Shown here: one piece after another, positions 3,229 to 23,264 of the stretch | Position numbering within the stretch: position 1 is the first letter of the stretch | Layout of the letters: each line of letters starts with the position of its first letter | The notes under the pieces: generated by a model | Database searches by the model: none | The model's input: the letters and a program-made list of their open reading frames with translations, nothing else | What the model was told of the DNA's origin: nothing | IMG/VR virus record: IMGVR_UViG_3300044237_004289 | Span: 1-25,748 of that record | From: a virus | Length of the DNA stretch: 25,748 nucleotides | Strand: one strand, 5' to 3' | Position numbers and translations under genes: made by a program

Positions 3229-3660
3229 ATGTCGATTAATTCTAGGACCAAGGGGGCAAGTTACGAAAGACAGGTGGTAGGAATCCTAAACGAGTTTTTT
3301 TCTGCCAATAATTTTGCTGTGAGCTGTAAACGTAACCTAGATCAATACCAAGAAAAGCATTTGCCAGACATAAACATTCCATTTCATGCCATAGAGTGCA
3401 AACATTACAAAAAAGGCAACTCTTACAAGCCAGAATGGTGGCGTCAAGTCTGCGAAAGTGCCGCTTTAGACGATTCTATCCCTGTTTTAGTCTATAAATT
3501 CAACCGTGTACCGACTAGAGTGTGTGTACCACTGCATGCAATCAATACTAAATGGCCAAAAGACAACGAAAAAGTCGCTATTATGTCGATGGAAGCTTGG
3601 TTAAAAGTTTTAAAAACGAACTGGAACGATTATCGTGGTCTTTACGGTTCTAATTTATGA
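3229..3660 (+). CDS. Holliday-junction-resolvase-like PD-(D/E)XK nuclease
   Basis: A 143-residue protein. RTKGASYERQVVGILNEFF at residues 4-22 gives the N-terminal helix with the conserved glutamate. RNLDQYQEKHLPDI supplies the acidic metal ligand, and HAIECKHYKK is the E-x-K strand of the PD-(D/E)XK fold. This order and size match archaeal Hjc-type and phage resolvase-like nucleases, which cut branched DNA before packaging or in recombination. The frame is open back to 3151, but ATG 3229 starts directly before the conserved domain, and the upstream extension (LLSYATLCTWLYI) looks untranslated. No strong ribosome site is seen at either start. The 3' end overlaps the next gene by ATGA. A restriction-like or VRR-type nuclease is the main alternative. 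Confidence 0.72.
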   Translation: MSINSRTKGASYERQVVGILNEFFSANNFAVSCKRNLDQYQEKHLPDINIPFHAIECKHYKKGNSYKPEWWRQVCESAALDDSIPVLVYKFNRVPTRVCVPLHAINTKWPKDNEKVAIMSMEAWLKVLKTNWNDYRGLYGSNL

Positions 3661-4403
3661 AAAATCAAGAAATTACAGTTTGGTTTTCTTGCGGAGCTGC
3701 TTCTGCTGTTGCAGCTAAAAAGACCTTGGAACTTTATGGCACCGAAAACAATGTTCGAGTGGTCAATAATCCAGTCAAAGAAGAGCATCCAGACAATCAA
3801 AGATTTCTTAAAGATGTTGAGCAGTGGTTAGGCGTTGAAATAGAGTATGCAATCAACACAAAATTTCCTGATTGCTCGGCTGAGGAAGTTTGGGATAAAG
3901 TCAGTTTTATGTCTGGCCCTATGGGAGCGCCTTGTACCTTGCATTTAAAAAAACATGCTAGACAGCTTTGGGAAGCAAAAAATAAATCCGACTATTTGGT
4001 ATTAGGTTTTACTGCTGATGAAGCAAAAAGAGCTGATAGATTCAAAAAAGTCGAAAAACAAAATCTTTTACCCGTGTTAATAGATCTTAATTTATCTAAA
4101 TTAGATTGTTTTGAGATAATTGATAGAGCTGGTATCAAACGTCCAGAAATATATGATTTTGGTTTTCCAAATGCCAACTGCATAGGTTGTGTAAAGGCTA
4201 CTTCGCCAACTTATTGGAATTTAGTACGCAAAAAATTTCCAGAAATATTTGCTCGACGAGCCGAACAATCTAGGCAAATAGGCGCTAAGTTAGTTAGACA
4301 CAAAGGTGAGCGTATTTTTTTAGATGTTTTACCACTGGACGCAAAAGGTCGCCCTTTGAAGAATTATGATTTTGAGTGTGGTATATTTTGTCTCAAAGAG
4401 TAA
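3657..4403 (+). CDS. PAPS-reductase-like PP-loop protein
   Basis: A 248-residue member of the adenine-nucleotide alpha-hydrolase (PP-loop) fold. The nucleotide-binding loop is FSCGAASAVAAK at residues 10-21. GAPCTLHLKK and YLVLGFTADEAKRADR follow as in CysH/DndC-like proteins. Cysteines occur at PC, NCIGC and at the C-terminus (ECGIFC), which could ligate a metal or Fe-S cluster as in 3-thia-modifying relatives. Phages frequently carry this family under the name phosphoadenosine phosphosulfate reductase. True sulfate assimilation is unproven, and base or tRNA thiolation is an alternative. The gene is translationally coupled to the upstream nuclease (ATGA). Just upstream of the next gene, TATAAT at 4404-4409 lies only five bases before ATG 4415. 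Confidence 0.75.
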   Translation: MKNQEITVWFSCGAASAVAAKKTLELYGTENNVRVVNNPVKEEHPDNQRFLKDVEQWLGVEIEYAINTKFPDCSAEEVWDKVSFMSGPMGAPCTLHLKKHARQLWEAKNKSDYLVLGFTADEAKRADRFKKVEKQNLLPVLIDLNLSKLDCFEIIDRAGIKRPEIYDFGFPNANCIGCVKATSPTYWNLVRKKFPEIFARRAEQSRQIGAKLVRHKGERIFLDVLPLDAKGRPLKNYDFECGIFCLKE

Positions 4404-6799: not shown

Positions 6800-7122
6800 T
6801 GCCCACTTACAATAAATTTTACTATCGACCCTTGCCAGATAATCTAACACTTGGCACAAGTGAGATTGAAGGCACTGGTGTTTTTGCAACAGAAAAACTA
6901 GAAGCCAACTTAGATTTAGGCATGACTCACATAAAAGTGCCAATTATTAACGGTTACATACGCACCCCACTTGGCGGTTTTGTCAATCACACCGAAGCAG
7001 CCAACTGTTATTTAGTGCAAAAATTGGATTGGGATGACTACCGAGTCTTTCATCTCTGCACCATGCGACCCATAAAAAAGGGTGAAGAACTCACCCTTAA
7101 TTATCATCTCGACGAAGATTAG
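6799..7122 (+). CDS. Minimal SET-domain protein (putative protein-lysine methyltransferase)
   Basis: At 107 residues it is about the size of the smallest viral SET enzymes. SEIEGTGVFATEKLEAN (residues 21-37) matches the N-terminal SET strand with the G-x-G-V/L-F-A pattern. GGFVNHTEAANCY (59-71) is the NHS/C pseudoknot motif. IKKGEELTLNYHLDE (92-106) is the GEEL-T-x-Y motif with the catalytic tyrosine at residue 102. There are no pre-SET or post-SET zinc clusters. It would transfer methyl groups from S-adenosylmethionine to lysines on a phage or host protein; the target is unknown. It starts by TAATG overlap with the polyvalent gene, so the two are likely co-expressed. Its 3' end converges on and overlaps (4 bases) the last minus-strand gene, and it carries that operon's terminator. 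Confidence 0.82.
   Translation: MPTYNKFYYRPLPDNLTLGTSEIEGTGVFATEKLEANLDLGMTHIKVPIINGYIRTPLGGFVNHTEAANCYLVQKLDWDDYRVFHLCTMRPIKKGEELTLNYHLDED
7074..7098 (-). terminator. Intrinsic terminator of the minus-strand operon
   Basis: Read on the minus strand, AAGGGTGA - GTTCT - TCACCCTT forms a perfect 8-bp stem (7098 back to 7078) with a GC-rich core. It is followed by an uninterrupted T tract (six Ts at 7079-7074). It begins 20 bases past the stop of the last minus-strand gene and lies wholly inside the SET-domain coding sequence on the opposite strand. Confidence 0.85.
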
Positions 7123-10065: not shown

Positions 10066-10857
10066 ATGAAACCAATTAAACAGATCAATAATGTCTACGG
10101 CTACATCCGGGTTTCAACCCACGAACAAGTAGCCAACGGCAGTTCCTTAGAGAACCAAAAGCAACTCATCACAGAGTTTGTCCAAGAAAAATACAACCGA
10201 CCCGTTGATAAATTTTTCATCGACGCTGGTGTCAGTGGCACCATCGGTATTACCGAACGCCCAGCTTCCAAAGAGCTGACCGATACCATTGATGCCCACG
10301 ACGTCATCGTTGCCACTCGCCTCGATAGACTCTCCAGATCCAGTGGCGATTTACTCAACACCATACCTGTGTTGGAAGACACTGGCGTTACCTTGTATTT
10401 CTGTCAGCAGTTTGGTGACGTACCGATTGTCTATCCAAAAACTAAAGACGCAACTGGACTTAAATCCAAGTTTGATATGAACGAGATGGCTAATCGCATT
10501 ATGTTGATGGTCTTGTCAGCTGTTTCCGAAATCGAACACGGTGCTATCAAAGATCGCCTCGCCGACGGTAAAGTAGTTTGGGCAGAAAAAGGTTATTCGA
10601 TAGGTGGACACACACCATTTGGTTATGAGAAAGCTTATGAAAAAGTCGGTAATAAAATGCACACCAAGTTGATACCGATAGAAGAAGAACAAGCCGTTTT
10701 GAAAACCATTTACAACTGTCGAAAACGTGGCTTAGGAGCTCGTCGGATTGCCAAACAAGTCAGCAATCGTCATCCTGGTTACGAGAACTTTTCGGTCAAC
10801 AAAGTAGCAAAGATTATCAATCGTAAGTTTCAAGGCTTACCAGAGTCAGCTATTTAG
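10066..10857 (+). CDS. Serine site-specific recombinase (resolvase/integrase family)
   Basis: A 263-residue protein with the resolvase catalytic domain. YGYIRVSTHEQ carries the nucleophilic serine at residue 17, and ATRLDRLSRSSGDL has the arginines near residues 85, 88 and 91. GGHTPFGYEK and VLKTIYNCRKRGLGARRIA then mark the recombinase DNA-binding domain of the larger serine recombinases. It lacks the long zinc-ribbon/coiled-coil end of large integrases (usually over 450 residues) but is longer than invertases (about 190). It may integrate the phage, resolve multimers or invert DNA. No flanking inverted repeats or att core are visible. It is divergently transcribed from the small-gene operon through a shared control region. 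Confidence 0.88.
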   Translation: MKPIKQINNVYGYIRVSTHEQVANGSSLENQKQLITEFVQEKYNRPVDKFFIDAGVSGTIGITERPASKELTDTIDAHDVIVATRLDRLSRSSGDLLNTIPVLEDTGVTLYFCQQFGDVPIVYPKTKDATGLKSKFDMNEMANRIMLMVLSAVSEIEHGAIKDRLADGKVVWAEKGYSIGGHTPFGYEKAYEKVGNKMHTKLIPIEEEQAVLKTIYNCRKRGLGARRIAKQVSNRHPGYENFSVNKVAKIINRKFQGLPESAI

Positions 10858-10888: not shown

Positions 10889-11026
10889 ATGACCGATACA
10901 GAAAAAGTCCAAGCTGCATTAACTAAAATTGATTACATCTTGGCTTATAAATTTATTACTATACCCGTCAAAGCCGAACTCGAAGCTGCTAAATCTGATT
11001 TAGAAAGCGTTACTGGAGTTAGTTAG
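10889..11026 (+). CDS. 45-residue hypothetical protein
   Basis: ATG 10889 begins MTDTEKVQAALTKIDYILAY and ends at TAG 11026, whose last base is the first base of the next gene's GTG start. It is helical, with a Lys/Glu-rich second half (VKAELEAAKSDLESVTGV). There is no Shine-Dalgarno sequence; the start directly follows CTTTTT. Placement before a tail gene suggests a structural or chaperone role, but nothing specific is recognised. Confidence 0.6.
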   Translation: MTDTEKVQAALTKIDYILAYKFITIPVKAELEAAKSDLESVTGVS

Positions 11027-11607
11027 TGGCTAATATCACAGGTTGGGGTCGAGGAACTTGGGGACAAGGCACCTGGGGTGAGCCCATTGCTGTTGAGCTC
11101 GGCTCTCTAGCTATTACCTCTGGCCTTGGCAGTTTAACCACTCGACACAGCATACAAGTCGCACTTGGCACACAAGCGATTACTTCTGGCTTAGGCTCAA
11201 CCACACAAGTAGCTAAAGCTAATACCACGGTAACGACTTTAGCGATAACTTCGGGGATCGGTTCTACAACTCAAATAGCGAAAGCCAACGTCGGTTTGAC
11301 TACCTTGGTGACAACTTCGGCTTTAGGCAGTGTCATCGTTCACGAAAACGAAGTCATCAACGCACCTACTTTTGCTATTACTTCTGGTTTGGGCACGCCG
11401 ACCGTGGTTGCTAAAGCTAACGCCGTGACAACTGGTTTGAGCATGACTGGTAGTACAGGCGCTATTTTCATTTGGGGTGAAATCGATGATTCACAAACAC
11501 CGAGTTATTCAGAGATAGATGATTCACAAACTCCAAGTTACTCAGAGATTGCAACCAGTCAAAGTCCAAACTATACTTCTATTAAAGGTGGTCGTGACGC
11601 AGCCTAG
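11026..11607 (+). CDS. Repeat-containing tail/structural protein
   Basis: 193 residues starting at GTG. It opens with a glycine/tryptophan segment GWGRGTWGQGTWGE seen at the start of marine phage tail proteins. It continues with about five imperfect 20-25-residue repeats around LAITSGLGSTTQVAKAN, a Thr/Ser/Gly-rich beta-strand pattern. It ends with three 11-residue units (EIDDSQTPSYS type). Q-T/S-P-x-Y/W repeats of that type are typical of marine phage structural proteins. It probably forms a small fibre or tail decoration; it lies immediately upstream of the tail fibre gene. No enzyme motif or signal peptide. Confidence 0.65.
   Translation: MANITGWGRGTWGQGTWGEPIAVELGSLAITSGLGSLTTRHSIQVALGTQAITSGLGSTTQVAKANTTVTTLAITSGIGSTTQIAKANVGLTTLVTTSALGSVIVHENEVINAPTFAITSGLGTPTVVAKANAVTTGLSMTGSTGAIFIWGEIDDSQTPSYSEIDDSQTPSYSEIATSQSPNYTSIKGGRDAA
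11479..11577 (+). repeat. Three tandem 33-bp units encoding EIDDSQTPSYS-type repeats
   Basis: Units at 11479-11511, 11512-11544 and 11545-11577. The first two are nearly identical in DNA and identical in protein; the third has diverged (EIATSQSPNYT). The length is a multiple of three, so unit number can change by slippage without a frameshift. Confidence 0.85.
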
Positions 11608-11645
11608 TAAAGAATGATATATAATCAAGCAACTGGAGATTATAG

Positions 11646-13514
11646 ATGGCAAGCACTTATGTAAACGATTTAAGATTAAATGAACTAGCAACTGGAGATG
11701 CTAGTGGTACTTGGGGTACCATAACCAACACCAATTTAGAGTTGATAGCCGAAGCTTTTAGTTTTGGCACCGAAGGCATCACAACTAACGCCGATACGCA
11801 CACGTCTACCATCGCTGATGGTGCTACCGATCCAGTGCGTAGTATGTACGTTAAATACACAGGAACCCTAGATTCCGCTTGTACCATAACCATAGCACCA
11901 AATACTGTCTCGAAATTATGGTTTATAGAAAATGGCACAAGCGGGTCTCAAAATATCATCATCTCCCAAGGCACTGGAGCCAATGTCACCATACCAGCTG
12001 GCGATACCAAAGTAGTGTATTCCGATGGCGCAGGTTCTGGTGCTGCTGTCGTCGACGCTTTTGCGAGTCTTTCTACCGTAGATCTGAAAGTTCAAGACGA
12101 TTTGACAGTTACGGATGATGCCTCCGTAGGTGGTGATTTATTAGTTAGTGGTGAAGTACAAACTGCAAATATCGGTTTCACTGATGGCGACAATGCAATC
12201 ACCATAGCTGATGGTGGCGGTATCACAGCAGCTAATGGTATTACTTCCACAGCAGCAGCCAACACGTTTGGAGCTACTTCGTTTAACGATGCTAATATTA
12301 CAAATGTTGGTGATATTGCCTTAGATAGTTTATCAGCAGACGATTCTAGCATTTCCATAGCCAGCCCGGTGGTAATTAATGGGTCCACACCTACTTTAAC
12401 TATTGGTGATGCAGGTGCAGAAGATACTAAGATTGTTTTTAATGGTAATGCTCAAGATTATTACATTGGGCTAGATGATTCTGCTGACGATTTAATTATT
12501 GGTAAAGGTTCTACTGTAGGTACAACACCTGCTGTAGTTATTGATGAAAATTTAAATGTTGGAATTGGAACTACAAGTCCTGCAAGACCATTACACATAG
12601 AAAACGCTGAAGGAAGATTAGTTCGTTTGAGTCATACATCTAATCCTAAAATAGAATTTGTTGATACAACAAATGGTACATCCGGAGCTTATTTAGGCTC
12701 GGAAGATAACGAATTGACGTTTGAAACTGGTGGTCAGAATGAAAGAATGAGAATTGATTCTGCTGGTAATGTTGATATTAAGAGTTCAAATTTATATTTA
12801 ACAGGTAGTAATGACAGAAGAATAAAACTTAGTGATAGTGGTATTGCTGGTGTTTCTGATTCAAATAATACAGTTCATATTCGTGGTGATGACGATACTT
12901 TGATACTTAATAATGCTGGTAATGGAAATATGTTGTTCCAAGAAAACGGCACAGAAAGAATGCGAATTGCTGCTGGAGGTGCTTTTTTAATTAACAAAAC
13001 AAGTGCATCAGGGGCTGTAGAGGGTTTTGAATTTGAAAGTAACGTATGTAGAATTACAAAAAGTGGTGGAACACCTTTATTTTTAAACAGATTGACAAGT
13101 GATGGAGTCTTAGTTGATTTAAGAAAAGACACAAGTCAAGTTGGAACTATCAGTACAAATGCTAATTCCTTACCTTCAGATAAAAATTTCAAGAGAGATA
13201 TAAGTGATTTAGATTTAGGTTTGAACTTAATCTCTAAGTTAAAACCAAGCCAATACAACTATAAAATTGACGATGAGGGTTCTCCTAAAATGTTTGGCTT
13301 GATAGCACAAGATTTAGAAGAATCTTTAAGTGAAGTAGGTATAGAAAAAAATAGCACTTGGCTTTTACAACACGAACCTAAAGATGATGAAAACGAATCA
13401 GATTATAGCTTAGATTATTTAAAACTTACACCTGTACTAATAAAAGCTATCCAAGAACAACAAACACAGATTGAAGCCTTACAATCTGAAATTAACACTC
13501 TAAAAGGAGGATAA
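11646..13514 (+). CDS. Tail fibre protein with C-terminal peptidase S74 chaperone domain
   Basis: 622 residues. The N-terminus (STYVNDLRLNELATGDASG) is a virion-attachment-like module. The middle is beta-rich with phrases typical of fibre shafts (NVGIGTTSPARPLHI, ERMRIDSAGNVDI, ERMRIAAGGAFLINK). At the C-terminus, SDKNFKRDISDLDLGL, SQYNYKIDDEGSPKMFGLIA and YLKLTPVLIKAIQEQQ match the intramolecular chaperone (peptidase S74), which trimerises and then cuts itself off at a serine near SDKNFK. A short coiled coil closes the protein. GGAG lies 7 bases before the ATG, and TATAAT at 11620-11625 could give a local transcript. It is the likely host-recognition protein. The last third has a lower G+C content than the first, as in a swapped module. 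Confidence 0.85.
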   Translation: MASTYVNDLRLNELATGDASGTWGTITNTNLELIAEAFSFGTEGITTNADTHTSTIADGATDPVRSMYVKYTGTLDSACTITIAPNTVSKLWFIENGTSGSQNIIISQGTGANVTIPAGDTKVVYSDGAGSGAAVVDAFASLSTVDLKVQDDLTVTDDASVGGDLLVSGEVQTANIGFTDGDNAITIADGGGITAANGITSTAAANTFGATSFNDANITNVGDIALDSLSADDSSISIASPVVINGSTPTLTIGDAGAEDTKIVFNGNAQDYYIGLDDSADDLIIGKGSTVGTTPAVVIDENLNVGIGTTSPARPLHIENAEGRLVRLSHTSNPKIEFVDTTNGTSGAYLGSEDNELTFETGGQNERMRIDSAGNVDIKSSNLYLTGSNDRRIKLSDSGIAGVSDSNNTVHIRGDDDTLILNNAGNGNMLFQENGTERMRIAAGGAFLINKTSASGAVEGFEFESNVCRITKSGGTPLFLNRLTSDGVLVDLRKDTSQVGTISTNANSLPSDKNFKRDISDLDLGLNLISKLKPSQYNYKIDDEGSPKMFGLIAQDLEESLSEVGIEKNSTWLLQHEPKDDENESDYSLDYLKLTPVLIKAIQEQQTQIEALQSEINTLKGG

Positions 13515-14294: not shown

Positions 14295-14477
14295 ATGGCA
14301 ACAGTAAAGGATGCTTTACACAAAATAGAGACACATGAAAAAGAGTGTGCTCTACGTTATGAAAATATTGAAAAACGACTAGAAGAAGGTTCTGAAAAAT
14401 TTAGAAGATTAGAAAATTTACTGTGGGGAGTCTATCCCTTTATAGTTGGTGCAATCGTAATTACTAGATTTTTATGA
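14295..14477 (+). CDS. Small coiled-coil protein with C-terminal membrane anchor (XhlA/holin-like)
   Basis: 60 residues starting at MATVKDALHKI; a longer frame from 14205 is not supported because it runs through the preceding gene. The first 40 residues are a charged coiled coil (ENIEKRLEEGSEKFRRLENL). The last 20 form one hydrophobic segment (LWGVYPFIVGAIVITRFL). This layout matches XhlA-like phage proteins that accompany holins. The stop overlaps the next start (ATGA). Function by analogy only. Confidence 0.6.
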   Translation: MATVKDALHKIETHEKECALRYENIEKRLEEGSEKFRRLENLLWGVYPFIVGAIVITRFL

Positions 14478-14809
14478 ACGAAGAAACAAAAACAGAAAAC
14501 ACAGAAGCGCCTATCAAAAAAAAGTTGGAGTTAGACATTGATGTAACGCCACACAATTCTGGAAAAAATCCTTATCAAAAATGGATATACTTAGCCAGAG
14601 CCATAGATTCCTGGCGCATATTTCCTAGATTGTTTTTAAGTGTTTATATATTTTTACTCTATTATTCAACAATGTGGTTTATGAGTTTGGAAGACCCAAC
14701 TTTAGAACAAAGCGGTTTAATATCAATCATAGTGGGAGCAGGCGCAGCTTGGTTTGGTTTGTATGCAGGTACATCAAACTCAAGCAAAAACTTCAAAGGC
14801 GAGGATTAA
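14474..14809 (+). CDS. Two-transmembrane protein, candidate holin
   Basis: 111 residues: a soluble charged N-terminus, then two hydrophobic stretches (LFLSVYIFLLYYSTMWFM near 53-70 and GLISIIVGAGAAWFGLYAG near 81-99) separated by a short acidic loop, and a charged end (SKNFKGED). A cytoplasmic N-terminus with two membrane passes is a class II holin-like topology. It sits among membrane genes upstream of the spanin/endolysin block. Holin function is inferred from topology and position, not from a diagnostic motif. Confidence 0.6.
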   Translation: MNEETKTENTEAPIKKKLELDIDVTPHNSGKNPYQKWIYLARAIDSWRIFPRLFLSVYIFLLYYSTMWFMSLEDPTLEQSGLISIIVGAGAAWFGLYAGTSNSSKNFKGED

Positions 14810-15103
14810 ATGGATTGGCTCAACCTAATTGCTGAATTAGGTGTTCCGATAGCTGGTGCTTTGGTCATGGCCTATTTTATTTTTTTAGTAATGAAGCAAC
14901 TTATGGACGGTTTGGTTAGTGAAATCAAAACCGTGCAAGGCATTACACAGATGTTAATCACTAGAGCTTCGATAATGAATAACGACATGATTCGCATTGA
15001 TACTTTAGTTTCAGCAGCTTTAGATTTATCTCCTGACCTCGACCGAATTGCTAGATCAGAAAATTTTGTGGAGGATGGCAAAATAGATGCCAGAAGAGAT
15101 TGA
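14810..15103 (+). CDS. Single-pass membrane protein, first of a related pair
   Basis: 97 residues. One N-terminal membrane segment (ELGVPIAGALVMAYFIFLVM, about 9-28) precedes a long helical, coiled-coil-like soluble part (LVSEIKTVQGITQMLITRA, then MIRIDTLVSAALDLSPDLDR). The layout is shared with the next gene (short N-terminus ending in LGVP/FGFP before the membrane helix, then a coiled coil with NNDMIRID / LDQDMIRLK), which suggests an old duplication. GAGG precedes the start. Possible holin accessory or antiholin; unproven. Confidence 0.65.
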   Translation: MDWLNLIAELGVPIAGALVMAYFIFLVMKQLMDGLVSEIKTVQGITQMLITRASIMNNDMIRIDTLVSAALDLSPDLDRIARSENFVEDGKIDARRD

Positions 15104-15387
15104 TGGACATTGTACAAATAGTTGCTGATTTTGGATTCCCAGTAGTAATGGTCATAGGTTTAGGTTACTTTGTTTATTATGTTTGGCAGACAATTACCAA
15201 TACCATAGATCCAGCTGTGCAAGAAATGAAAACTACTATCATACGGCTTACTGACCAGTTACGACTTTTAGACCAAGATATGATACGCTTGAAAGAGAAA
15301 GTATCTACAGTCATAGAGCTTAAAGAAAACGAAAACGATGAAAAGAAAGAAAACAGAAAAAGAACTAATACAAGACGAAAAGGTTAA
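15103..15387 (+). CDS. Single-pass membrane protein, second of the related pair
   Basis: 94 residues starting at MDIVQIVADFGFP. A TTG one codon earlier is possible, but ATG 15103 gives the usual TGATG junction with the previous gene. Membrane segment VVMVIGLGYFVYYVW is followed by a coiled coil (MKTTIIRLTDQLRLLDQDMI) and a lysine/arginine-rich end. Similar architecture to the preceding protein. Its last 50 bases also encode the start of the CsgF-like protein in another frame. Confidence 0.65.
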   Translation: MDIVQIVADFGFPVVMVIGLGYFVYYVWQTITNTIDPAVQEMKTTIIRLTDQLRLLDQDMIRLKEKVSTVIELKENENDEKKENRKRTNTRRKG

Positions 15388-15850
15388 AAATTGGTTTGCA
15401 GCCATAGGTTTAGGTTTCATAATTTTTACCTTAGTTTTTGCCTCAGTCGAAAGTGTTTTTGCAGATCAAATTACGCACAAATTTAAAAATCCGAGTTTCA
15501 GTGGTGTCGGTACTTCAAGCCATTACCTAACTATTGAAAATCAAGAATTTAGCAGAAAATTATCATTGAAGGAGGAGCTCAAAGCTTTGCAAGATGAAAT
15601 AGAGAGAGATAAAGAAAATACAACCCTAGCTCGTTTTGTTAGAAATTTAGAATCAAGAATATATGCTCAACTTTCAAGACAATTAGTTGAGAACTTATTT
15701 GGTGACGTGTCAAAAACATCTGGCACCTTAGAGCTAGAAAACAACTTAATAAGTTATACTAGCGATGGTGTGACAATAACATTAACTATTACAGACCCTG
15801 ATGGTAATACAACTGAAATATCTCTGCCTATTGGCTCTTTTACTTTCTAG
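15338..15850 (+). CDS. csgF: CsgF-like curli assembly factor
   Basis: 170 residues. A basic N-terminus and hydrophobic core (WFAAIGLGFIIFTLVFAS) end in VFA at 40-42, a good signal-peptidase site giving a mature protein from DQITHKF. ITHKFKNPSFSGVGTSS matches the start of mature CsgF (T-F-x-F-R/K-N-P-N/S-F-x-G), the segment that inserts into the CsgG channel in E. coli. ESRIYAQLSRQLVENLF corresponds to its central helix, and ITLTITDPDGNTTEISLPIG to its C-terminal strands. CsgF couples the pore to curlin nucleation at the cell surface. It is somewhat longer than E. coli CsgF (about 138) because of the extended N-terminus and a charged insert. Order F then G matches E. coli. Confidence 0.85.
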   Translation: MKRKKTEKELIQDEKVKNWFAAIGLGFIIFTLVFASVESVFADQITHKFKNPSFSGVGTSSHYLTIENQEFSRKLSLKEELKALQDEIERDKENTTLARFVRNLESRIYAQLSRQLVENLFGDVSKTSGTLELENNLISYTSDGVTITLTITDPDGNTTEISLPIGSFTF

Positions 15851-16673
15851 TTGTGCAATACACGAAGTAATAGAAGATACCGAAAAACAAAGATACAAAA
15901 GCAAAGGTACAACCGAAGCCACCATTTACGATTTACAGTCAGAAGCTTTATTTAATGTTCGCCCTCCTAAAGTTATGCCAGTTGTAGCGGTCTACGGCGA
16001 CGCCTTTACCGACCAAACTGGCCAGAGAAAAAGCAATTCTGAATTTGCGTTATTTTCTACTGCCGTAACTCAAGCTCCAAGCACTTTACTAATAAGGGCT
16101 TTAAAACATGCAGCCAATGGCAAGTTTTTCAGAGTGGTTGAAAGAGTTGGCTTAGACAATTTAGTAAAAGAAAGACAACTAATAAGATCTGCAAGAGAGC
16201 AATTTGCTGAAAATGAAGAAGACAAAACTATACAACCTTTGTTGTTCGCTGGTGTCTTGCTCGAGGGTGCAGTGATAAGTTATGATACTAACTTAACGAG
16301 TGGAGGCGCAGGCGCCCGTCTACTCGGCATTGGTGGTAGTGTTCAGTACCGAGAGGACACAGTAAGCATAAGTTTACGGATGGTTTCTGTTGCTACTGGC
16401 GAGGTTCTTTTAGAAGTAACCAGTCAAAAAACCATATTTAGCTATGGCAAATCCAACGACGTATTCAAGTTCTTTGAAGCTGGAACTGAGTTGATTGAGA
16501 TAGAAATAGGTTCTGCTCGAAACGAAAGTACCACAATAGCTTTGATGAAAGCGATTGAAAGTGCTGTTTTAGAACTAATAAACTTAGGTTATGACAGGAG
16601 TTTTTGGACACATGACATTAAAATTGATAAGCCTAGTTGCATTGATGATAAGTGTGACGATTTACGGGGCTGA
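15801..16673 (+). CDS. csgG: CsgG-like outer-membrane curli secretion lipoprotein
   Basis: 290 residues, near the 277 of E. coli CsgG. The lipoprotein signal ends in LSSC with the lipidated cysteine at residue 18. Strong family blocks follow: VVAVYGDAFTDQTGQ, FSTAVTQAPSTLLIRALK, FFRVVERVGLDNLVKERQLI, SGGAGARLLGIGGSVQYRED, LRMVSVATGEVLLEV and SAVLELINLGYDRSFW. CsgG forms a nine-subunit beta-barrel pore that exports curlins without ATP. At the constriction loop, F85 lines up with E. coli F56, while the positions of Y51 and N55 appear as S80 and L84, so the channel throat may differ. The only ATG supplying a lipobox overlaps csgF by 50 bases. Ribosome site not evident; translation is probably coupled. 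Confidence 0.93.
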   Translation: MVIQLKYLCLLALLLSSCAIHEVIEDTEKQRYKSKGTTEATIYDLQSEALFNVRPPKVMPVVAVYGDAFTDQTGQRKSNSEFALFSTAVTQAPSTLLIRALKHAANGKFFRVVERVGLDNLVKERQLIRSAREQFAENEEDKTIQPLLFAGVLLEGAVISYDTNLTSGGAGARLLGIGGSVQYREDTVSISLRMVSVATGEVLLEVTSQKTIFSYGKSNDVFKFFEAGTELIEIEIGSARNESTTIALMKAIESAVLELINLGYDRSFWTHDIKIDKPSCIDDKCDDLRG

Positions 16674-17340
16674 TAACGAAATCTACATCGAACAATCTGG
16701 AACACAAGCTAATATTGACTTAGAGCAAATTGGCAGTGGCAACATAATAGGTGGTTTACAATCAACACCTGGCAGTATGAATCCTTTAGATTTGGACGGT
16801 AATGTGATGACTTTAGACATCAATATGATTGGAAACTCTAACAAATTCTTAGGCGATATATGGGCAGACACTTATACAGGATTTTTTCAGTTTGATGGAG
16901 ATAGTAATGTTTTTACTATGCAAACTGACCCAAACAACACTTTTGGAGCTGATAACTCAAATGTAAATGTTAATGTTACTGGTAGCACAAACCTATTCAC
17001 ATTAAATCAAGCCACGTCAGCTTTAGCTAGTCAGTTGGATTTAGACTGGATTATTAACGGCGATGGCAATCAGATAACTTCAAATATTAACTACGATGGA
17101 GCTACCAACTACATGGACATCGACGGTAACTCTAATAGTATTTCTTTTACTGGTAGTGGCTATGCTGGAGGATATTTTTATTGGGACCACACAGGTAATA
17201 ATACTGCTTTAAACGTACAACAGTTAAGCACACAAGACAATGATTGGCTCAAAATTATATCTACATCAAGTAATACTGGTAATAACACTAGCTCTTTCTG
17301 CATCATTCAAAACGATCAAGGCACAAGCACAGGTTGTTGA
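16612..17340 (+). CDS. Curlin-like secreted amyloid protein (CsgA/CsgB family, divergent)
   Basis: 242 residues. ATG 16612 gives a clean signal peptide (KLISLVALMISVTIYGA) cut after residue 20; ATG 16591 would spoil it. AGGAG is 11 bases upstream. EIYIEQSGTQANIDLEQIGS is the classic curlin strand-loop-strand (Q-x-G-x2-N). Further looser repeats continue to the end (FDGDSNVFTMQ, INGDGNQITSNI, IDGNSNSISFTG, HTGNNTALNVQQ), giving an Asn/Gly/Ser/Thr-rich beta-solenoid. Two cysteines near the C-terminus (C234 and the final C242) are unusual for curlins. It is the obvious export substrate of the preceding CsgF/CsgG and would be laid on the cell surface. E. coli CsgA has about 150 residues, so this is long and less regular. 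Confidence 0.8.
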   Translation: MTLKLISLVALMISVTIYGADNEIYIEQSGTQANIDLEQIGSGNIIGGLQSTPGSMNPLDLDGNVMTLDINMIGNSNKFLGDIWADTYTGFFQFDGDSNVFTMQTDPNNTFGADNSNVNVNVTGSTNLFTLNQATSALASQLDLDWIINGDGNQITSNINYDGATNYMDIDGNSNSISFTGSGYAGGYFYWDHTGNNTALNVQQLSTQDNDWLKIISTSSNTGNNTSSFCIIQNDQGTSTGC

Positions 17341-18370
17341 TAACATAGGTGACATCACAGAGCTAAATGGTCAAGCACAGATTGTAAGAGATAAAACTTA
17401 TGATGCTGCCTTAAAATTTACCATACAACAAAATGACGAAGCGATAACTAATAATGGCCGAATGGCTATAACCTTTTTAGACGAAAGCACGGTTCGTCTA
17501 ACAGAACATTCGCAGTTGATTGTTGACGAGTATATTTTTGACCCAAACCCTTCTAACTCAAAAATGGCTTTGACTTTTGGTTTAGGCACCGCCAGATTTA
17601 TAACAGGTAATCTCAACCGCATCGATAAACAAAATATAAAATTAAAAACCCCAACGGCTAACATAGCTATCAGAGGCACCGATTTTACAGTGACAGTAGA
17701 TGAATTAGGTAGATCTTTGATTATTTTGTTACCTGACGCATTAGGGCTATCTAGTGGTGAAATAGAAGTTATTACTGCAACCGGGTCAGTATTGCTTAAT
17801 AAACCTTTTGAAGCAACTTCGGTTTCTGTTTTTGAAGCAAGTCCATCTAGCCCGGTGGTGCTAGATTTAACTTTGGGTGACATTGACAATATGTTGATTG
17901 TGAAAGCACCTGCTGAAAAAGAAGCGGTAGTGCAAGAACAAACAAAAGCAAAACAAGCAAATTTTTTAGATTTCAATGATTTAGATATTGATTATCTGGA
18001 AGAGGATTTTTTGAAAGAAGACGATTTAGAGTTTACTGAATTAGATATAAATTATCTTGATGTAAATTTCCTAGAAGATTTATTAGATGTTTTAGATGTT
18101 TTAGCTGTTGGCGAAGAAGAAGATCAATTACGGGAGGTGTCTGGTATAAACATATCTGGAACTTTGATAGGGCAAGATCCAGATACACAAATCACAACGA
18201 TTGTGTCTGGTCAACAAGTGAGCTTGCGTCGTGCAGTTAGCGACTCAGCTCGTGTTGACATTGACGGCAGTAATTCTTACACAATAATTTTTATTCAAGA
18301 CGGTACTTCAAATGTTGTTAAAATAAATGGTGGTAGTGATTCAACTATTACTATCACACAAAGCAACTGA
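17240..18370 (+). CDS. Secreted FecR-domain protein with acidic repeats and curlin-like C-terminus
   Basis: 376 residues. A signal peptide (KLYLHQVILVITLALSASF then KAQA) ends near residue 28-30. The FecR domain covers about 32-165: ITELNGQAQIVRD, MAITFLDESTVRLTEHSQL, LTFGLGTARFITGNL, KTPTANIAIRGTDFTVTV. Residues 245-284 are two 20-residue acidic repeats of the F-x-x-LDI-x-YL type. The end (SYTIIFIQDGTSNVVKINGG, then STITITQSN) follows curlin spacing (S-x6-Q-x-G-x2-N), suggesting it can join or cap the curlin fibre. FecR proteins of this RGTDF type often adjoin CHASE2 cyclases, as here. The gene overlaps the curlin gene by 101 bases and the cyclase by one. There is no membrane anchor, so its final location is periplasm or surface. 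Confidence 0.82.
   Translation: MIGSKLYLHQVILVITLALSASFKTIKAQAQVVDNIGDITELNGQAQIVRDKTYDAALKFTIQQNDEAITNNGRMAITFLDESTVRLTEHSQLIVDEYIFDPNPSNSKMALTFGLGTARFITGNLNRIDKQNIKLKTPTANIAIRGTDFTVTVDELGRSLIILLPDALGLSSGEIEVITATGSVLLNKPFEATSVSVFEASPSSPVVLDLTLGDIDNMLIVKAPAEKEAVVQEQTKAKQANFLDFNDLDIDYLEEDFLKEDDLEFTELDINYLDVNFLEDLLDVLDVLAVGEEEDQLREVSGINISGTLIGQDPDTQITTIVSGQQVSLRRAVSDSARVDIDGSNSYTIIFIQDGTSNVVKINGGSDSTITITQSN
17972..18091 (+). repeat. Tandem 60-bp duplication encoding two acidic 20-residue units
   Basis: Units 17972-18031 and 18032-18091 encode FNDLDIDYLEEDFL and FTELDINYLDVNFL followed by acidic residues. The DNA copies have diverged but keep frame and register. They lie between the FecR domain and the curlin-like tail. 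Confidence 0.65.
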
Positions 18371-20130
18371 TGAAATATTTGATAATACCTTTAATTTCTT
18401 TACTGATTTTACCTTTAGTTTTTACTAGCACGCCAACAGAGATTATTAAACTGAAAACCTTTGATGCTTTGGTAAAAGCACAAACCGAAAGCGGTAATTT
18501 TGTGATTTTAAATATAAACGAAAAAGATATACAGAATGAAGGCGGCTGGCCTTTGCCAAGAAAAAGATTAGCTGAAATTAATGATTTACTTTTAGCTTAT
18601 GGCGCTACAGGAGTCGGTTGGGTCATAGCTTTTCCACAACCAGACCGATTAGGTGGAGACCAAGCTTTTGCTGACTCTTTGCAGCTCGCACCAACAATAC
18701 TTGCAACCTTTGAAAACCCAGCTGGTACTTTTCCGAAAACTATAGGCACAATCATCAAAGGTAATTCAGTTGTCGGTTTAGAAACAAAAGGTGTGATTGA
18801 AAACACAGATTTGTTGAGAACTGCAACAGCTCAAGGCATAGCTGTAGCACCAGTAGATGTAGATAATTTAGTAAGACGTTTACCTTTATTGCTACGCACT
18901 CCAGACGGTTGGGTATCAGCTTTTGGCACAGAAGTTTTAAAAATCTTAACAGGAACTAAATCTTACATAATTACTTCCGATGACTTAGGCATCAAAGAAA
19001 TTGCAGTCAGAGGTTTGCCACCAGTAAAAACCGATAGTCTAGGTAGAAAATGGATTTCTTGGGTAGACACTCCAGAAACTGACTTAGCGAGCATGGATGT
19101 CAATGGACGATTTGTTTTTGTTGGAGTGACGGCGCCTGGTGTAATGCCACAGTTAGCAACACCAGTAGGCTTATTAGAGCCACACAAAATTCAAGCTGCC
19201 TTATCGGAAAGCATGTTGATACAAGACTCACCTATAATCCCTGATTATAGTTTATTAGCAGAATTAATGATTTTGTTAGTTACTACGGTTTTAGTTTGGT
19301 TTTTGTTGTTTTACCTTGGTATCAATTTAGGCTTGTTTTTCAGCGCAGTTATTTTGGGGATGACAGCTTTTTTTGGTTACTACCTAATACAAAAAGGTTT
19401 GCTGATAGATGTAAGTTGGACTCTAATTAGTCAGTTTATTGTCGGTGCTGTTGCTTTTTACCTTAGATTCAGAGAGCAATACAAACTTCGGTTACAGATA
19501 AAAAAACAGTTTGAACATTATTTAGATCCTCGCCAAGTCAAAAAATTACAGTCAAATCCAAGTTTACTGAAATTAGGTGGTGAAAAGAAAACTGCTACTT
19601 TTTTATTCACTGATGTCAGAGGATTCACTTCTATGTCAGAAGAGTTAGCACCTGAAAAAGTAACGTACATAATGAACAAGGTTTTAACAGTTCAACAAAA
19701 AGCCGTGCAAAAATACGATGGTATGGTAGATAAATACATAGGTGACGCAATGATGGCAATTTTTAACGCTCCTTTAGATTTAGAAAACCATGAAGAAAAA
19801 GCCATAGATTGCGCTAAAGAAATTGCTAAAAACATGCAAGAACTCAATGAAGAGTTGATAAAAAGTGCTTTACCAGAAATAGAAATAGGTATAGGTGTCA
19901 ACTCTGGCAAAGCTGTAATAGGTAATATGGGCAGTGCTACAAGGTTCGATTATACGGCTATCGGCGATGCAGTAAATCTTGCAGCTAGACTAGAGAGTGC
20001 TACAAAAGAACAAAAAGTGAATATATTAATAGGCGAAGACACTGCCAATAACTGTCAATATGATTTAAGATATGTCAACGACATTTTTGTGAAAGGTAAA
20101 ATTTCACCCGTTAAAATATATGGGATTTAA
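18370..20130 (+). CDS. CHASE2-domain membrane class III nucleotide cyclase
   Basis: 586 residues. An N-terminal membrane helix (residues 2-18) leads into a periplasmic CHASE2-type sensor (about 22-285: FVILNINEKDIQNEGGWPLP, FVFVGVTAPGVMPQLATPVG). Three membrane helices follow (about 292-366), a short linker (YLRFREQYKLRLQIKKQFEH), and a cyclase domain from about 405. Metal-binding aspartates are at 415 (FTDVRGFT) and 459 (YIGDAMMAIF). The purine-specifying pair is Lys455 and Thr529, as in ATP-using class IIIb enzymes, and transition-state residues are N536 and R540 (YTAIGDAVNLAARLE). All catalytic residues are intact. It should make cAMP in the host cytoplasm in response to a periplasmic signal. 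It is coupled to the FecR gene by TGATG; the spanin gene starts inside its end. Confidence 0.92.
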   Translation: MKYLIIPLISLLILPLVFTSTPTEIIKLKTFDALVKAQTESGNFVILNINEKDIQNEGGWPLPRKRLAEINDLLLAYGATGVGWVIAFPQPDRLGGDQAFADSLQLAPTILATFENPAGTFPKTIGTIIKGNSVVGLETKGVIENTDLLRTATAQGIAVAPVDVDNLVRRLPLLLRTPDGWVSAFGTEVLKILTGTKSYIITSDDLGIKEIAVRGLPPVKTDSLGRKWISWVDTPETDLASMDVNGRFVFVGVTAPGVMPQLATPVGLLEPHKIQAALSESMLIQDSPIIPDYSLLAELMILLVTTVLVWFLLFYLGINLGLFFSAVILGMTAFFGYYLIQKGLLIDVSWTLISQFIVGAVAFYLRFREQYKLRLQIKKQFEHYLDPRQVKKLQSNPSLLKLGGEKKTATFLFTDVRGFTSMSEELAPEKVTYIMNKVLTVQQKAVQKYDGMVDKYIGDAMMAIFNAPLDLENHEEKAIDCAKEIAKNMQELNEELIKSALPEIEIGIGVNSGKAVIGNMGSATRFDYTAIGDAVNLAARLESATKEQKVNILIGEDTANNCQYDLRYVNDIFVKGKISPVKIYGI

Positions 20131-20530
20131 GTTAAGTTTAATTTTAGGAGGATTATTAGTGGCAACAGTGTCTGGTTCGGCTTTTTATATAAAATACCTT
20201 AATAACCAAATATCCACCTTACAAGCCAATCAAATTGTCTTAGAAGATAAAATTACTGAACAAAACGAGTCAATAAAAAATTATCTAACAAAACAAAAAG
20301 AAACTATGGCGCAAATGCAAACGCTTGAAGCCGAAAAACAAGAAGCAGTAAGATCGGTTACAGAACTTAGAAATAAATTTGCAAGGCATGATTTGAATAA
20401 TCTTGCTTTAGTTAAACCTGGATTAATTGAAAAAAGAGTCAATGCTGGCTCAAAAAAAGTTTTTGATGAGCTAACTTCAATTACTTCCCCTAGAGTAGAA
20501 GAAGATGAAAATATCTCTCCTAATAATTAG
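20120..20530 (+). CDS. Inner-membrane spanin (Rz-like)
   Basis: 136 residues: a single N-terminal membrane anchor (LSLILGGLLVATVSGSAFYI), then a long periplasmic coiled coil (QISTLQANQIVLEDKITEQN through MQTLEAEKQEAV), and the block ELRNKFARHDLNNLALVKPG, seen in phage Rz-like proteins before GLIEKRVNAGSKKVFDEL. This is the i-spanin layout. It partners the overlapping lipoprotein downstream to fuse inner and outer membranes in the last lysis step. The gene starts 11 bases inside the cyclase gene, so the spanins are co-transcribed with the curli/cyclase cassette. Confidence 0.8.
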   Translation: MGFKLSLILGGLLVATVSGSAFYIKYLNNQISTLQANQIVLEDKITEQNESIKNYLTKQKETMAQMQTLEAEKQEAVRSVTELRNKFARHDLNNLALVKPGLIEKRVNAGSKKVFDELTSITSPRVEEDENISPNN

Positions 20531-20876
20531 CTCATTGTTTGTCTTGGGTGGCTGTTCAACACTGCCCAAGACACAACCAGTAGAGGTTAGAACCATAGCT
20601 GAAATACCACCGATGTATCACCCTCCATTACCCTTAGAAATACAAGGAGTAGCTGTAAAATGGAAGGTTTTAACACCAGAAATCATGCAAGAGTATTTAG
20701 ATCTTGTAGAAACAGGCAAAGCCCCTGCTATGCCTTACTATGCTTTGACCACACAACAATATGAAAATTTATCTTTGAACATGGCAGAAATAACAAGATA
20801 TACCAAAAACATTTTGTCGATAGTTGAGTATTACAGAAACTACGATAAATCAAAAAAGGAGAATAGTGATGAGTGA
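20505..20876 (+). CDS. Outer-membrane lipoprotein spanin (Rz1-like)
   Basis: 123 residues. The signal sequence ISLLIISSLFVLGGC carries a lipobox with the lipidated cysteine at residue 17. A proline-rich segment (IPPMYHPPLPLEIQG) is the hallmark of o-spanins. The rest is mostly helical (LTPEIMQEYLDLVETGKAPA, LSLNMAEITRYTKNILSIVE). It overlaps the i-spanin gene by 26 bases, a common Rz/Rz1 arrangement, and is longer than the 60-residue lambda Rz1. It should anchor in the inner leaflet of the outer membrane and bind the i-spanin across the periplasm. Confidence 0.75.
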   Translation: MKISLLIISSLFVLGGCSTLPKTQPVEVRTIAEIPPMYHPPLPLEIQGVAVKWKVLTPEIMQEYLDLVETGKAPAMPYYALTTQQYENLSLNMAEITRYTKNILSIVEYYRNYDKSKKENSDE

Positions 20877-21246
20877 CAACCCAGATGCTTTTGTTTATCA
20901 AGCAGAACTAGATAGAGTCGTTGACGGCGATACTGTTGATGTCGTATTAGATTTAGGCTTTGATGTAAAATTACACAAACAAAGAGTAAGATTGCACGGT
21001 ATCGACACCCCAGAGTCGAGAACAAGAAACTTAGCAGAAAAAAAACTTGGATTGGCAGCCAAAGAAAGATTGAAAGAGCTCTGTGTAGGCAAGTTTAAAG
21101 TTAAATCATTAGGAAAAGGTAAATACGGTAGGATTTTAGGCATACCTTACACAGAAACAGGAGAAGATATTTGTCAAAAATTAATAGATGAAGGACATGC
21201 TGTAAAATATCATGGCGGAAAGAAAACTAAAGTATGGGGAGCGTAA
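20869..21246 (+). CDS. Thermonuclease-like (staphylococcal nuclease fold) protein
   Basis: 125 residues starting at MSDNPDAFVYQAEL; AAAGGAG is well spaced and the start overlaps the spanin stop (ATGAGTGA). A frame from 20824 is only an extension. RVVDGDTVDVVLDLGF (16-31), RVRLHGIDTPESR (39-51) and GKYGRILG (84-91) carry the calcium- and phosphate-binding residues of the SNase family (aspartates at 19 and 21, R41, E49, R88). No signal peptide is seen, so it would act in the cytoplasm or after lysis. Roles could include host DNA degradation for nucleotide reuse. The lysis-gene context is notable. Confidence 0.85.
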   Translation: MSDNPDAFVYQAELDRVVDGDTVDVVLDLGFDVKLHKQRVRLHGIDTPESRTRNLAEKKLGLAAKERLKELCVGKFKVKSLGKGKYGRILGIPYTETGEDICQKLIDEGHAVKYHGGKKTKVWGA

Positions 21247-21248
21247 TT

Positions 21249-21692
21249 ATGAAAATATCAGAGGAAGGCAAGGCTTTAATTAAAAAGTTTGAAGGTTGTA
21301 AATTAGAAAGTTACTTATGCCCAGCAGGACATTGGACTGTAGGTTTTGGGCATGTTAAGGGAGTAGAGGAAGGTATGACAATAACACAAAATGAAGCCGA
21401 TGCTTACTTATCAAGTGATTTACAAGAATTTGAAACATACGTTGAAAATATGGTGAATGTAGAACTAGAGCAAAATGAATTTGATGCTTTGGTTTGTTGG
21501 ACTTTTAATTTAGGACCAACTAATCTGAGCACATCAACCTTGTTAAAAGTTTTAAATGAAGGCAAAAAAAACGAGGTACCTGCACAAATAAAGAGATGGA
21601 ATAAAGCATCTGGAGAGGTGTTAGAAGGACTTGTAAGAAGAAGAGAAGCCGAAGCTTTGTTATTTCAAGGTAAAGAATGGCACGAAGTATAG
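21249..21692 (+). CDS. Endolysin, GH24 lysozyme (muramidase)
   Basis: 147 residues from MKISEEGKALIKKFEG; an upstream ATG at 21234 is inside the nuclease gene. The T4/P22-type GH24 triad is E15 (KKFEG), C24 and T30 (LCPAGHWTVGFGH): E-x8-C-x5-T, the cysteine replacing the more usual aspartate. CWTFNLGPTNLSTSTLLK and LEGLVRRREAEALLF are further family blocks. It hydrolyses the MurNAc-GlcNAc bonds of peptidoglycan. There is no signal or SAR segment, so release needs a holin. With the spanins it completes the lysis functions. There is no obvious terminator directly after it. Confidence 0.92.
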   Translation: MKISEEGKALIKKFEGCKLESYLCPAGHWTVGFGHVKGVEEGMTITQNEADAYLSSDLQEFETYVENMVNVELEQNEFDALVCWTFNLGPTNLSTSTLLKVLNEGKKNEVPAQIKRWNKASGEVLEGLVRRREAEALLFQGKEWHEV

Positions 21693-21710: not shown

Positions 21711-21769
21711 CTAGGCATTTTATGCTTAGGGTTGTGCGATTACTATGTCACTACCTAATTGTGCAACCC
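21711..21769 (+). other. Two consecutive hairpins between endolysin and terminase genes
   Basis: CTAGGCAT (21711-21718) pairs with ATGCTTAG (21722-21729) around a three-base loop. GGGTTGTGC (21729-21737) pairs with GTGCAACCC (21761-21769), with two G-T pairs. No T tract follows either stem, so these are structured RNA or DNA-binding candidates rather than clear terminators. Confidence 0.4.
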
Positions 21770-21779
21770 GCTTAATTTT

Positions 21780-23264
21780 ATGGATTTGAACAAGCTCAAA
21801 GATTTCGACATTTTATCTGAACAAGATAAACAAGAAGCTTTAGCCCTGCTTCATAGATACGAACAAATTGATAAACAAGAAGAGTGTCAAAATGATTTTA
21901 TAAAATTTGTCAAACACCTCTGGCCAGATTTTATTGAAGGTAGGCACCACAAAATTATTAGCGAAAAATTTAATCGAATTGCACAAGGTAAACTAAAGAG
22001 GTTGATAGTTTGTTTGCCGCCTAGACATTCTAAATCTGAATTTGCTTCTACTTATTTTCCCGCTTGGATGATGGGTAGAAAAGGTGATTTAAAAATTATT
22101 CAAACCACGCACACAGCTGAATTAGCCGTGCGCTTTGGTAGAAAAGTTAGAAATATTATCGATAGTGAAGAGTATCAACACATATTTCCAGAACTTAAAT
22201 TACAAGCCGATAATAAATCAGCAGGTCGTTGGACAACTAACCAAGATGGCGAGAGTTATTACGCAGGTGTAGGTGGTGCAATTACTGGACGTGGTGCTGA
22301 TTTACTTATTATCGATGATCCTCATTCAGAACAAGATGCTATGTCCCCAAAAGCCATGGAATCGGCTTATGAGTGGTACACCTCTGGACCTAGACAGCGT
22401 TTACAACCAGGAGGCACGATTGTCATAGTAATGACACGTTGGAGCACCAAAGACTTGGTAGGGAAAGTTTTGAAAAAACAAGGCGAAGAAAACGCCGATC
22501 AGTGGGAAATAGTTGAGTTTCCTGCAATCATGCCAGAATCAGAAACTCCACTGTGGCCAGAATTTTGGCAAAAAGAAGAGTTGTTATCAGTAAAGGCGTC
22601 TTTACCCTTGCCTAAATGGAACAGCCAATGGTTACAAAATCCTACGGCAGAGGAAGGTAGTATCGTAAAAAGGGAGTGGTGGCGACGCTGGGAGGAGGAC
22701 AACGTGCCAGATTATAATTATGTCATACAAAGTTATGACACAGCTTTTTCCAAAAAAGATACTGCGGATTATTCAGCTATTACCACTTGGGCAATATTTG
22801 GAGACAATGACGACAATCCAGAAGGTATTATTTTATTAGACGCAAAAAGAGTTCGAGTTGATTTTCCAGAGCTAAAAAAAATAGCTTTAGAAGAATATAG
22901 ATATTGGGAACCAGATTGTGTCTTAATAGAGGCAAAAGCCTCTGGTACACCACTAACGCATGAATTAAGACGCATGGGCATACCTGTTACTGCTTACTCA
23001 CCTAGTCGTGGTCAAGATAAAGTAGCAAGAATGAATAGTGTTGCACCTATTTTTGAATCAGGCATGGTTTGGGCTCCAGAGCATGAATTTGCAGACGAAG
23101 TTATTGAAGAAATGGCTAGTTTCCCTTATGGCGATTATGATGACTATTGTGATAGTGCAACCATGGCTTTGATGCGTTTCAGACAAGGAGGTTTCTTGTC
23201 ACTAAAAGAGGATTATCAAGAAGAGGCTAAATTTATGCGTAAAAACAGAACCGTTTATTATTAA
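21780..23264 (+). CDS. terL: Terminase large subunit
   Basis: 494 residues from ATG 21780 (MDLNKLKDF); a TTG seven codons earlier is less likely. The ATPase domain has a Walker-A-like CLPPRHSKSEFAS near 80, Walker B LLIIDDPHSEQ near 177, and the coupling motif VMTRWSTKDL. The nuclease domain has QSYDTAFSKKDTADYSAITT, LIEAKASG and DYCDSATMALM, providing the three acidic metal ligands of the RNase-H-like fold. It translocates DNA into the prohead and cuts concatemers. No clear ribosome site is seen. Followed by TAATG into a small gene and then the portal. Confidence 0.95.
   Translation: MDLNKLKDFDILSEQDKQEALALLHRYEQIDKQEECQNDFIKFVKHLWPDFIEGRHHKIISEKFNRIAQGKLKRLIVCLPPRHSKSEFASTYFPAWMMGRKGDLKIIQTTHTAELAVRFGRKVRNIIDSEEYQHIFPELKLQADNKSAGRWTTNQDGESYYAGVGGAITGRGADLLIIDDPHSEQDAMSPKAMESAYEWYTSGPRQRLQPGGTIVIVMTRWSTKDLVGKVLKKQGEENADQWEIVEFPAIMPESETPLWPEFWQKEELLSVKASLPLPKWNSQWLQNPTAEEGSIVKREWWRRWEEDNVPDYNYVIQSYDTAFSKKDTADYSAITTWAIFGDNDDNPEGIILLDAKRVRVDFPELKKIALEEYRYWEPDCVLIEAKASGTPLTHELRRMGIPVTAYSPSRGQDKVARMNSVAPIFESGMVWAPEHEFADEVIEEMASFPYGDYDDYCDSATMALMRFRQGGFLSLKEDYQEEAKFMRKNRTVYY

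Follow-up and report, generated by a model that had tools for sequence, protein, structure and literature searches.

A predicted curli secretion module with FecR and CHASE2 cyclase genes in the lysis region of an HTVC023P-type podovirus

Introduction

Genes for type VIII (curli) secretion have been described in phages before, and the combined curli and cyclase module treated here has been known since 2022. Zaragoza-Solas et al. (2020; PMC7029224) reported csgF and csgG and proposed "sibling capture." In pelagimyophages and nine genomes of the HTVC023P type, Wittmers et al. (2022; PMC9599517) described the module, including the genes for curlin, FecR, and adenylate cyclase, and they also saw it expressed in metatranscriptomes. 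They named the short upstream genes histidine kinases, called FecR an iron regulator, and pointed out that the curli operons of bacteria include neither FecR nor the cyclase; CHASE2, spanins, and the endolysin are not mentioned in their main text. For the phage Melnitz, a lysis role was proposed and the curlin genes were stated to be missing (PMC9004378), contrary to the Melnitz GenBank record, which itself names two curlin-repeat proteins. Known hosts lack curli, according to PMC9599517 and PMC9004378. Here, we analyze such a module in a linear virus record of 25,748 bases (IMG/VR record IMGVR_UViG_3300044237_004289, considered over its whole length and referred to as the window).

The window and the module of PMC9599517 agree in gene order (short genes, csgF, csgG, csgA/B, fecR, cyclase) and come from the same phage group. 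They differ in naming, as the upstream proteins of the window are without a detected kinase domain and its FecR protein is without anti-σ architecture. The order TMA, TMB, csgF, csgG, curlin, fecR, and cyclase, in which TMA and TMB denote two small membrane proteins, is also shared with the isolated phages HTVC008M (KC465899), a cultured SAR11 phage with the whole set, and Melnitz (MZ577097). Both are myophages and, unlike the window, carry a second curlin gene between fecR and the cyclase gene. An earlier note, made from the letters of this DNA alone, had proposed a phage-borne curli module with FecR and a CHASE2 cyclase within the lysis region, which proved right. It had also regarded the full set as unreported, which was wrong: it is described in PMC9599517 and present in the GenBank entries for HTVC008M and Melnitz.

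Results

The large terminase subunit (TerL; 21759–23264), which places the phage lineage, is 62% identical to that of 023Pt_psg01, 59% to that of HTVC027P, and 57% to that of HTVC023P. Based on these values, we group the window with the HTVC023P-type podoviruses, of which it appears to be a new member carrying the pelagiphage type VIII secretion (curli) module. A near-identity DNA search of annotated phages gave no match to the window. HTVC023P-type isolates infect SAR11. The genes of the module, of the lysis region, and of TerL all lie on the plus strand.

The secretion pore is represented by csgF and csgG. The csgF product (15338–15850), an extracellular curli chaperone and pore ring, matches Pfam CsgF (2.6e-16) and keeps the FxxPxFSGxG motif at its N-terminus; its profile gave no match in the PDB. 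The product of csgG (15801–16673) is a lipoprotein of the outer-membrane secretion pore family (Pfam CsgG, 5.9e-47) with the lipobox LLSSC, and it matches the solved CsgG pores 4uv2/4uv3 at 2e-42.

The next open reading frame (ORF) opens at 16591, probably starts at 16612, and ends at 17340. It encodes the curlin substrate, which consists of a signal peptide and a predicted beta-solenoid with two strands per turn. This protein does not reach the cutoff of Pfam Curlin_rpt (10.0 bits vs. 20.7), which its Melnitz homologs exceed (26.0 and 21.8 bits), and its count of Q.G..N motifs is not above that of shuffles. A profile built on podovirus homologs only, with the myophage sequences excluded, recovers the curlins of HTVC008M (1.6e-25) and Melnitz (2.6e-20) and also finds a bacterial ORF adjoining csgF/csgG (2.6e-8). 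Viral models called "Curlin associated" match the protein, too. AlphaFold2 (AF2) models the protein as a beta-solenoid whose repeats span about 23–26 residues (pLDDT 85, pTM 0.82). In VIA-align, the model scores highest against the Pontibacter curli subunit 8c50 (Z 18.2, root mean square deviation 8.6, 198 residues); E. coli CsgA (8enq) scores Z 11.8, and beta-helices other than curlin, for example SufB, score up to Z 16. The fold class of this predicted structure is firm, and predicted fold and sequence homology together identify ORF 16591–17340 as a curlin relative. The curlin call made from the letters alone is thus carried by homology to the myophage curlins and a predicted curli-like solenoid, but not by the Pfam cutoff.

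The fecR gene (17240–18370) encodes a FecR-domain protein (Pfam FecR, 8.8e-10) composed of a signal peptide, an acidic linker, and a conserved beta C-terminus. Pfam shows the FecR domain alone, and hydropathy shows one N-terminal signal as the sole hydrophobic helix. Because of this signal peptide and the lack of any other membrane helix and of an anti-σ domain, the phage "FecR" is predicted to be a secreted protein and not the usual anti-σ FecR regulator; it is probably not an iron regulator. The AF2 model of this protein has low confidence (pLDDT 51) and was read for beta content alone. The last 30 residues, with the consensus SYTVIFIQDGVSNVIKINGGSDSVITITQSD, hardly vary among about 155 phage sequences and form the very end of the protein; in the window, this tail (SYTIIFIQDGTSNVVKINGGSDSTITITQSN) and the stop codon occupy 18272–18370. 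Its pattern is similar to one curlin repeat, and the window tail alone matches Curlin_rpt below the cutoff (14.4 bits, E 0.039). Searching phage curlins and bacterial ORFs with a hidden Markov model of the tail gave nothing significant. Homology between the FecR tail and curlin is therefore a lead, not demonstrated, suggested by the pattern and the Pfam match below the cutoff.

The last gene of the module (18370–20130) encodes a CHASE2 domain (5.9e-28), membrane helices, and a class III nucleotidyl cyclase domain (Guanylate_cyc, 2.1e-22), whose profile matches solved class III cyclases, with CyaB (3r5g) at 5.8e-43. The window protein holds the class III residues: the metal-binding D415 and D459, the substrate pair K455 and T529, and the transition-state pair N536 and R540. 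Both metal-binding Asp residues, the adenine-specifying Lys, and the transition-state Arg are present in all 138 relatives that cover the region, and the transition-state Asn is present in 136 of them (in the Melnitz cyclase, it is replaced by Ser); Ser, Thr, or Asp occupies the second specificity position. This conservation predicts an active adenylate cyclase with ATP as substrate. The Pycsar cyclase models of PADLOC also match the catalytic domain; since they are models of general class III cyclases, we judged these matches generic.

The module genes lie on one strand throughout and overlap. Overlaps of about 50, 65, and 92 nt join csgF/csgG, csgG/curlin, and curlin/fecR (window 15801–17340) and recur in the podovirus relatives; such long same-strand overlaps are not present in HTVC008M. 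Downstream of the module follow genes for an Rz-like i-spanin (20120–20530; phrog_739, 8.9e-15), an o-spanin lipoprotein (20505–20876; phrog_812, 2.8e-16), an SNase-like nuclease (20869–21246, with the ORF opening at 20824; Pfam SNase, 9e-14), and a GH24 endolysin (21234–21692; phrog_7, 3.4e-55), then TerL and portal. The csgF, csgG, FecR, and CHASE2 cyclase calls of the earlier note are thus borne out by Pfam profiles, as are its same-strand overlapping layout and the spanins, nuclease, and endolysin that it placed downstream. Transcription units could not be drawn from a promoter and terminator scan of the window, as predicted promoters were no more frequent than in shuffles. The median pairwise ratio of nonsynonymous to synonymous substitution rates is 0.13–0.23 for all seven module genes, overlapping stretches included, indicating purifying selection on each of them.

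Three small membrane proteins are encoded upstream of csgF. The first (14474–14809; phrog_10198, 3.3e-21), a probable two-helix hairpin, has homologs in 357 phage records, mostly of Vibrio phages, and is probably a better holin candidate than TMA or TMB. TMA (14810–15103) is 46–48% identical to its counterparts in HTVC008M and Melnitz; TMB (15100–15387), likewise conserved with its counterparts in these two phages, has a coiled-coil tail and matches phrog_18771 (9e-28) and, weakly, the holin family phrog_4898 (5e-4). Each contains one hydrophobic helix by hydropathy. Both match six of 50,697 phage records, precisely those with CsgG, FecR, and the full-length cyclase, which makes TMA and TMB strict partners of the module. 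Of the holin-like genes noted earlier upstream of the module, one is therefore a widespread holin candidate, but TMA and TMB were found in module-bearing phages alone. Judged by position, TMA and TMB presumably correspond to the genes called histidine kinases in PMC9599517. This name is not supported, since Pfam and further profile searches gave no HisKA or HATPase match in either protein. A search of 190 alphaproteobacterial genomes for TMA and TMB, made without a positive control, gave no match.

A CsgG scan of IMG/VR yielded at least 573 confirmed CsgG relatives, and scans with CsgG and FecR together yielded at least about 150 distinct contigs. These loci were picked by similarity to the window, a choice that favors its own lineage, with a few contigs entering twice. 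Their order is TM gene(s), csgF, csgG, curlin, fecR, cyclase, (spanins), (nuclease), GH24, terminase, so that the gene order of the window beside spanins is found repeatedly. Among the matches listed, 99 of 101 loci have TMA or TMB upstream of csgF, and in 63 of 72 testable loci the GH24 gene follows the cyclase gene at a distance of no more than 4 kb. Some phage-like contigs with the curli module (L168, L165, L166) are binned in bacterial metagenome-assembled genomes (Pelagibacter, Flavobacteriaceae, and Rhodobacteraceae) and may mislead searches for bacterial curli. OR851715.1 (H7), a 1.5-kb record named as a Salmonella phage with a csgG-like gene, is probably a bacterial fragment.

We compared the site of the module among TerL relatives with sufficient upstream sequence. 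In most of them, the module lies between the holin candidate, which forms the left edge of the site, and the i-spanin. Two contigs carry other cargo in this part of the lysis cassette (L287:167–2728 and L295:3073–6732), namely genes for a small coiled-coil membrane protein and for a protein of about 740–760 amino acids whose N-terminus is signal-like; neither protein belongs to a clear Pfam family. L304 and L308, in which long stretches match L295, are without the module, and L327, L338, and L343 show a short module-free stretch at the site. In L314, the 2.9 kb from csgF to fecR are gone relative to L325, to which it is 98% identical downstream and 91% upstream; TMA, TMB, and the holin candidate are kept, and the final bases of fecR (CGATTGTCATTAGACAAAGCTCAGGATA) are retained just upstream of the i-spanin. 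This fecR remnant is a deletion scar. Varied cargo, empty sites, and the scar of L314 identify the site, on sequence comparison, as a cargo slot within the lysis cassette from which the module can be lost.

Elsewhere in the window, we observed two tandem DNA methyltransferase genes (39–1998), a PAPS-reductase-like protein below the cutoff (3657–4403) with a RusA-like resolvase encoded upstream, and a small SET-domain protein (6799–7122; Pfam, 2.6e-8). A serine recombinase gene (10066–10857; phrog integrase, 6e-44; NCBIfam Ccr-like) directly precedes the tail-fiber genes. At 11026–13514, a repeat-containing ORF of 193 amino acids is followed by a tail fiber with an intramolecular-chaperone-like C-terminus. 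A single weak inverted-repeat pair (11451–11468/13422–13439; 18 nt, 78%) brackets the fiber gene. The recombinase could be a fiber-switching invertase or an integrase, both being possible.

Discussion

We think it probable that the locus is a pelagiphage type VIII secretion module that exports curlin fibers and includes an envelope-sensing cyclase. By hydropathy, signal peptides, lipobox, and membrane helices lie where fiber export would require them. The module genes would be transcribed late together with the lysis genes, and curlin and the FecR protein would reach the periplasm by Sec. CsgG and CsgF would then export curlin, which would polymerize at the infected cell's surface. The FecR protein would remain in the envelope as the partner read by CHASE2, and the cyclase would signal the state of the envelope or the fibers as cAMP. 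As the most likely benefit, and the least certain step, the dying cell or its debris could adhere to neighboring hosts, or the cell could be coated against competitors. A more speculative and rather doubtful extension is that FecR belongs physically to the fiber apparatus, with its tail attaching to curlin as it grows, or capping it, and that the CHASE2 cyclase reads FecR; the phage would then gauge amyloid export and reply with a cyclic nucleotide, cAMP or a related one, via a receptor of unfamiliar type.

Several observations weigh against this interpretation. No CsgE was found by Pfam among the scanned window proteins, an absence likewise stated for the module in PMC9599517. Melnitz-infected cultures showed no clumping (PMC9004378), and the module of HTVC008M and Melnitz does not lie beside recognized lysis genes. 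The cyclase can be absent, as L301, L312, L324, and L325 carry the module without it; together with the deletion of csgF to fecR in L314, this indicates that parts of the module are accessory. None of 16 phage records, two complete myophages included, encodes a cyclic nucleotide monophosphate (cNMP)-binding domain and thus a canonical cAMP receptor, and such domains occur in only five of 118 SAR11-family genomes. Class III cyclases were found in three of these 118, one of which is a phage contig in a Pelagibacter genome assembled from metagenomes. The conserved catalytic site makes the coupling to cyclic-nucleotide signaling proposed from the letters plausible; a canonical receptor, in contrast, is missing from the 16 phage records and almost missing from the SAR11 family.

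Among other explanations, a surface amyloid that blocks superinfection, with fibers or a filled pore hiding receptors from competing phages (PMC9599517), would suit a phage-made surface product. It is credible but unlikely, since a position among lysis genes points to late expression, by which time exclusion brings less benefit. Somewhat less probable is a lysis device, as argued for Melnitz in PMC9004378: CsgG–CsgF would form a late outer-membrane pore that permeabilizes the envelope or times lysis, with curlin and FecR as plugs or timers. The modules of the podovirus relatives do sit between holin candidate and spanins, and one of the two small membrane proteins upstream of csgF has a weak holin profile match. 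A pure pore, however, needs no curlin, which is conserved, under purifying selection, and predicted to adopt a fiber-subunit fold. Moreover, a complete spanin pair and an endolysin are already there, the unrelated cargo in L295 and L287 makes the site look like a cargo slot, and the myophage module is distant from recognized lysis genes. Because curlin and the FecR tail are conserved as much as the pore, we consider fiber secretion, serving adhesion or coating, more likely than a pore for lysis alone.

PMC7029224 and PMC9599517 proposed that the pore takes up large nutrients or cofactors during infection, and CsgG may leak in the absence of its gate CsgE; as the conserved CsgF, curlin, and FecR tail would be left unexplained, we regard this as very unlikely. 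Still less probable is that the cyclase serves counter-defense or energy diversion instead of fiber control. This would agree with the Pycsar matches and with the scarcity of cNMP-binding proteins, but those models cover class III cyclases in general, envelope sensing is indicated by the CHASE2 sensor and its usual pairing with FecR, and some modules such as that of L325 lack the cyclase. The chance of an assembly chimera of bacterial and phage DNA, the outcome that the earlier note had named as fatal to its proposal, is practically nil: the same or a similar arrangement in at least about 150 IMG/VR contigs and in the isolates HTVC008M and Melnitz rules it out. A role in lysogens has no specific support beyond the serine recombinase gene near the tail fiber.

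With at least 573 CsgG relatives in IMG/VR, the module is frequent in ocean phages, and infection would give the curli-free known hosts a new surface property. If infected cells do turn sticky, encounter, aggregation, and DNA exchange of SAR11 would be altered. HTVC008M and Melnitz offer cultured systems for studying the module, and the corrected parts list can guide co-expression: two membrane proteins free of kinase domains, a secreted FecR protein, and a cyclase whose active site is intact but which has no obvious receptor. Of the details presented here, the slot in the lysis cassette, the TMA and TMB partners, the conserved cyclase in a receptor-poor context, and the secreted FecR protein with its invariant tail were not found in the earlier papers on the module.

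Compared with bacterial systems, the window shares CsgG, CsgF, and the curlin fold with the csg genes of E. coli; it is without detected CsgE, CsgD, and CsgC and adds FecR and the cyclase, and the constriction loop of its CsgG differs in length from that of E. coli by about one residue. Few alphaproteobacteria encode CsgF (7 of 385 genomes). Around the bacterial csgF/csgG loci examined, the flanks read, which varied between contigs from about 1 to 10 kb, contained no FecR, cyclase, or TMA/TMB gene, in agreement with what PMC9599517 states on bacterial curli operons. An extracytoplasmic FecR-domain protein encoded beside a CHASE2 sensor is also a feature of the Burkholderia BiofilmReg operon (PMC5192318; for CHASE2 cyclases of S. 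meliloti, compare PMC13001267). Neighboring FecR and CHASE2 cyclase genes, anticipated for bacteria from the letters, do occur there (L240, L243, L250, L252, L258). Unlike the window, the bacterial loci with FecR and a CHASE2 cyclase or kinase that we inspected have no curli genes nearby (L240, L250, and L252 among the cyclase loci), and the FecR proteins read beside CHASE2 cyclases have no curlin-like ending. These separate bacterial curli and FecR–CHASE2 loci suggest that the phage module may have joined two bacterial systems.

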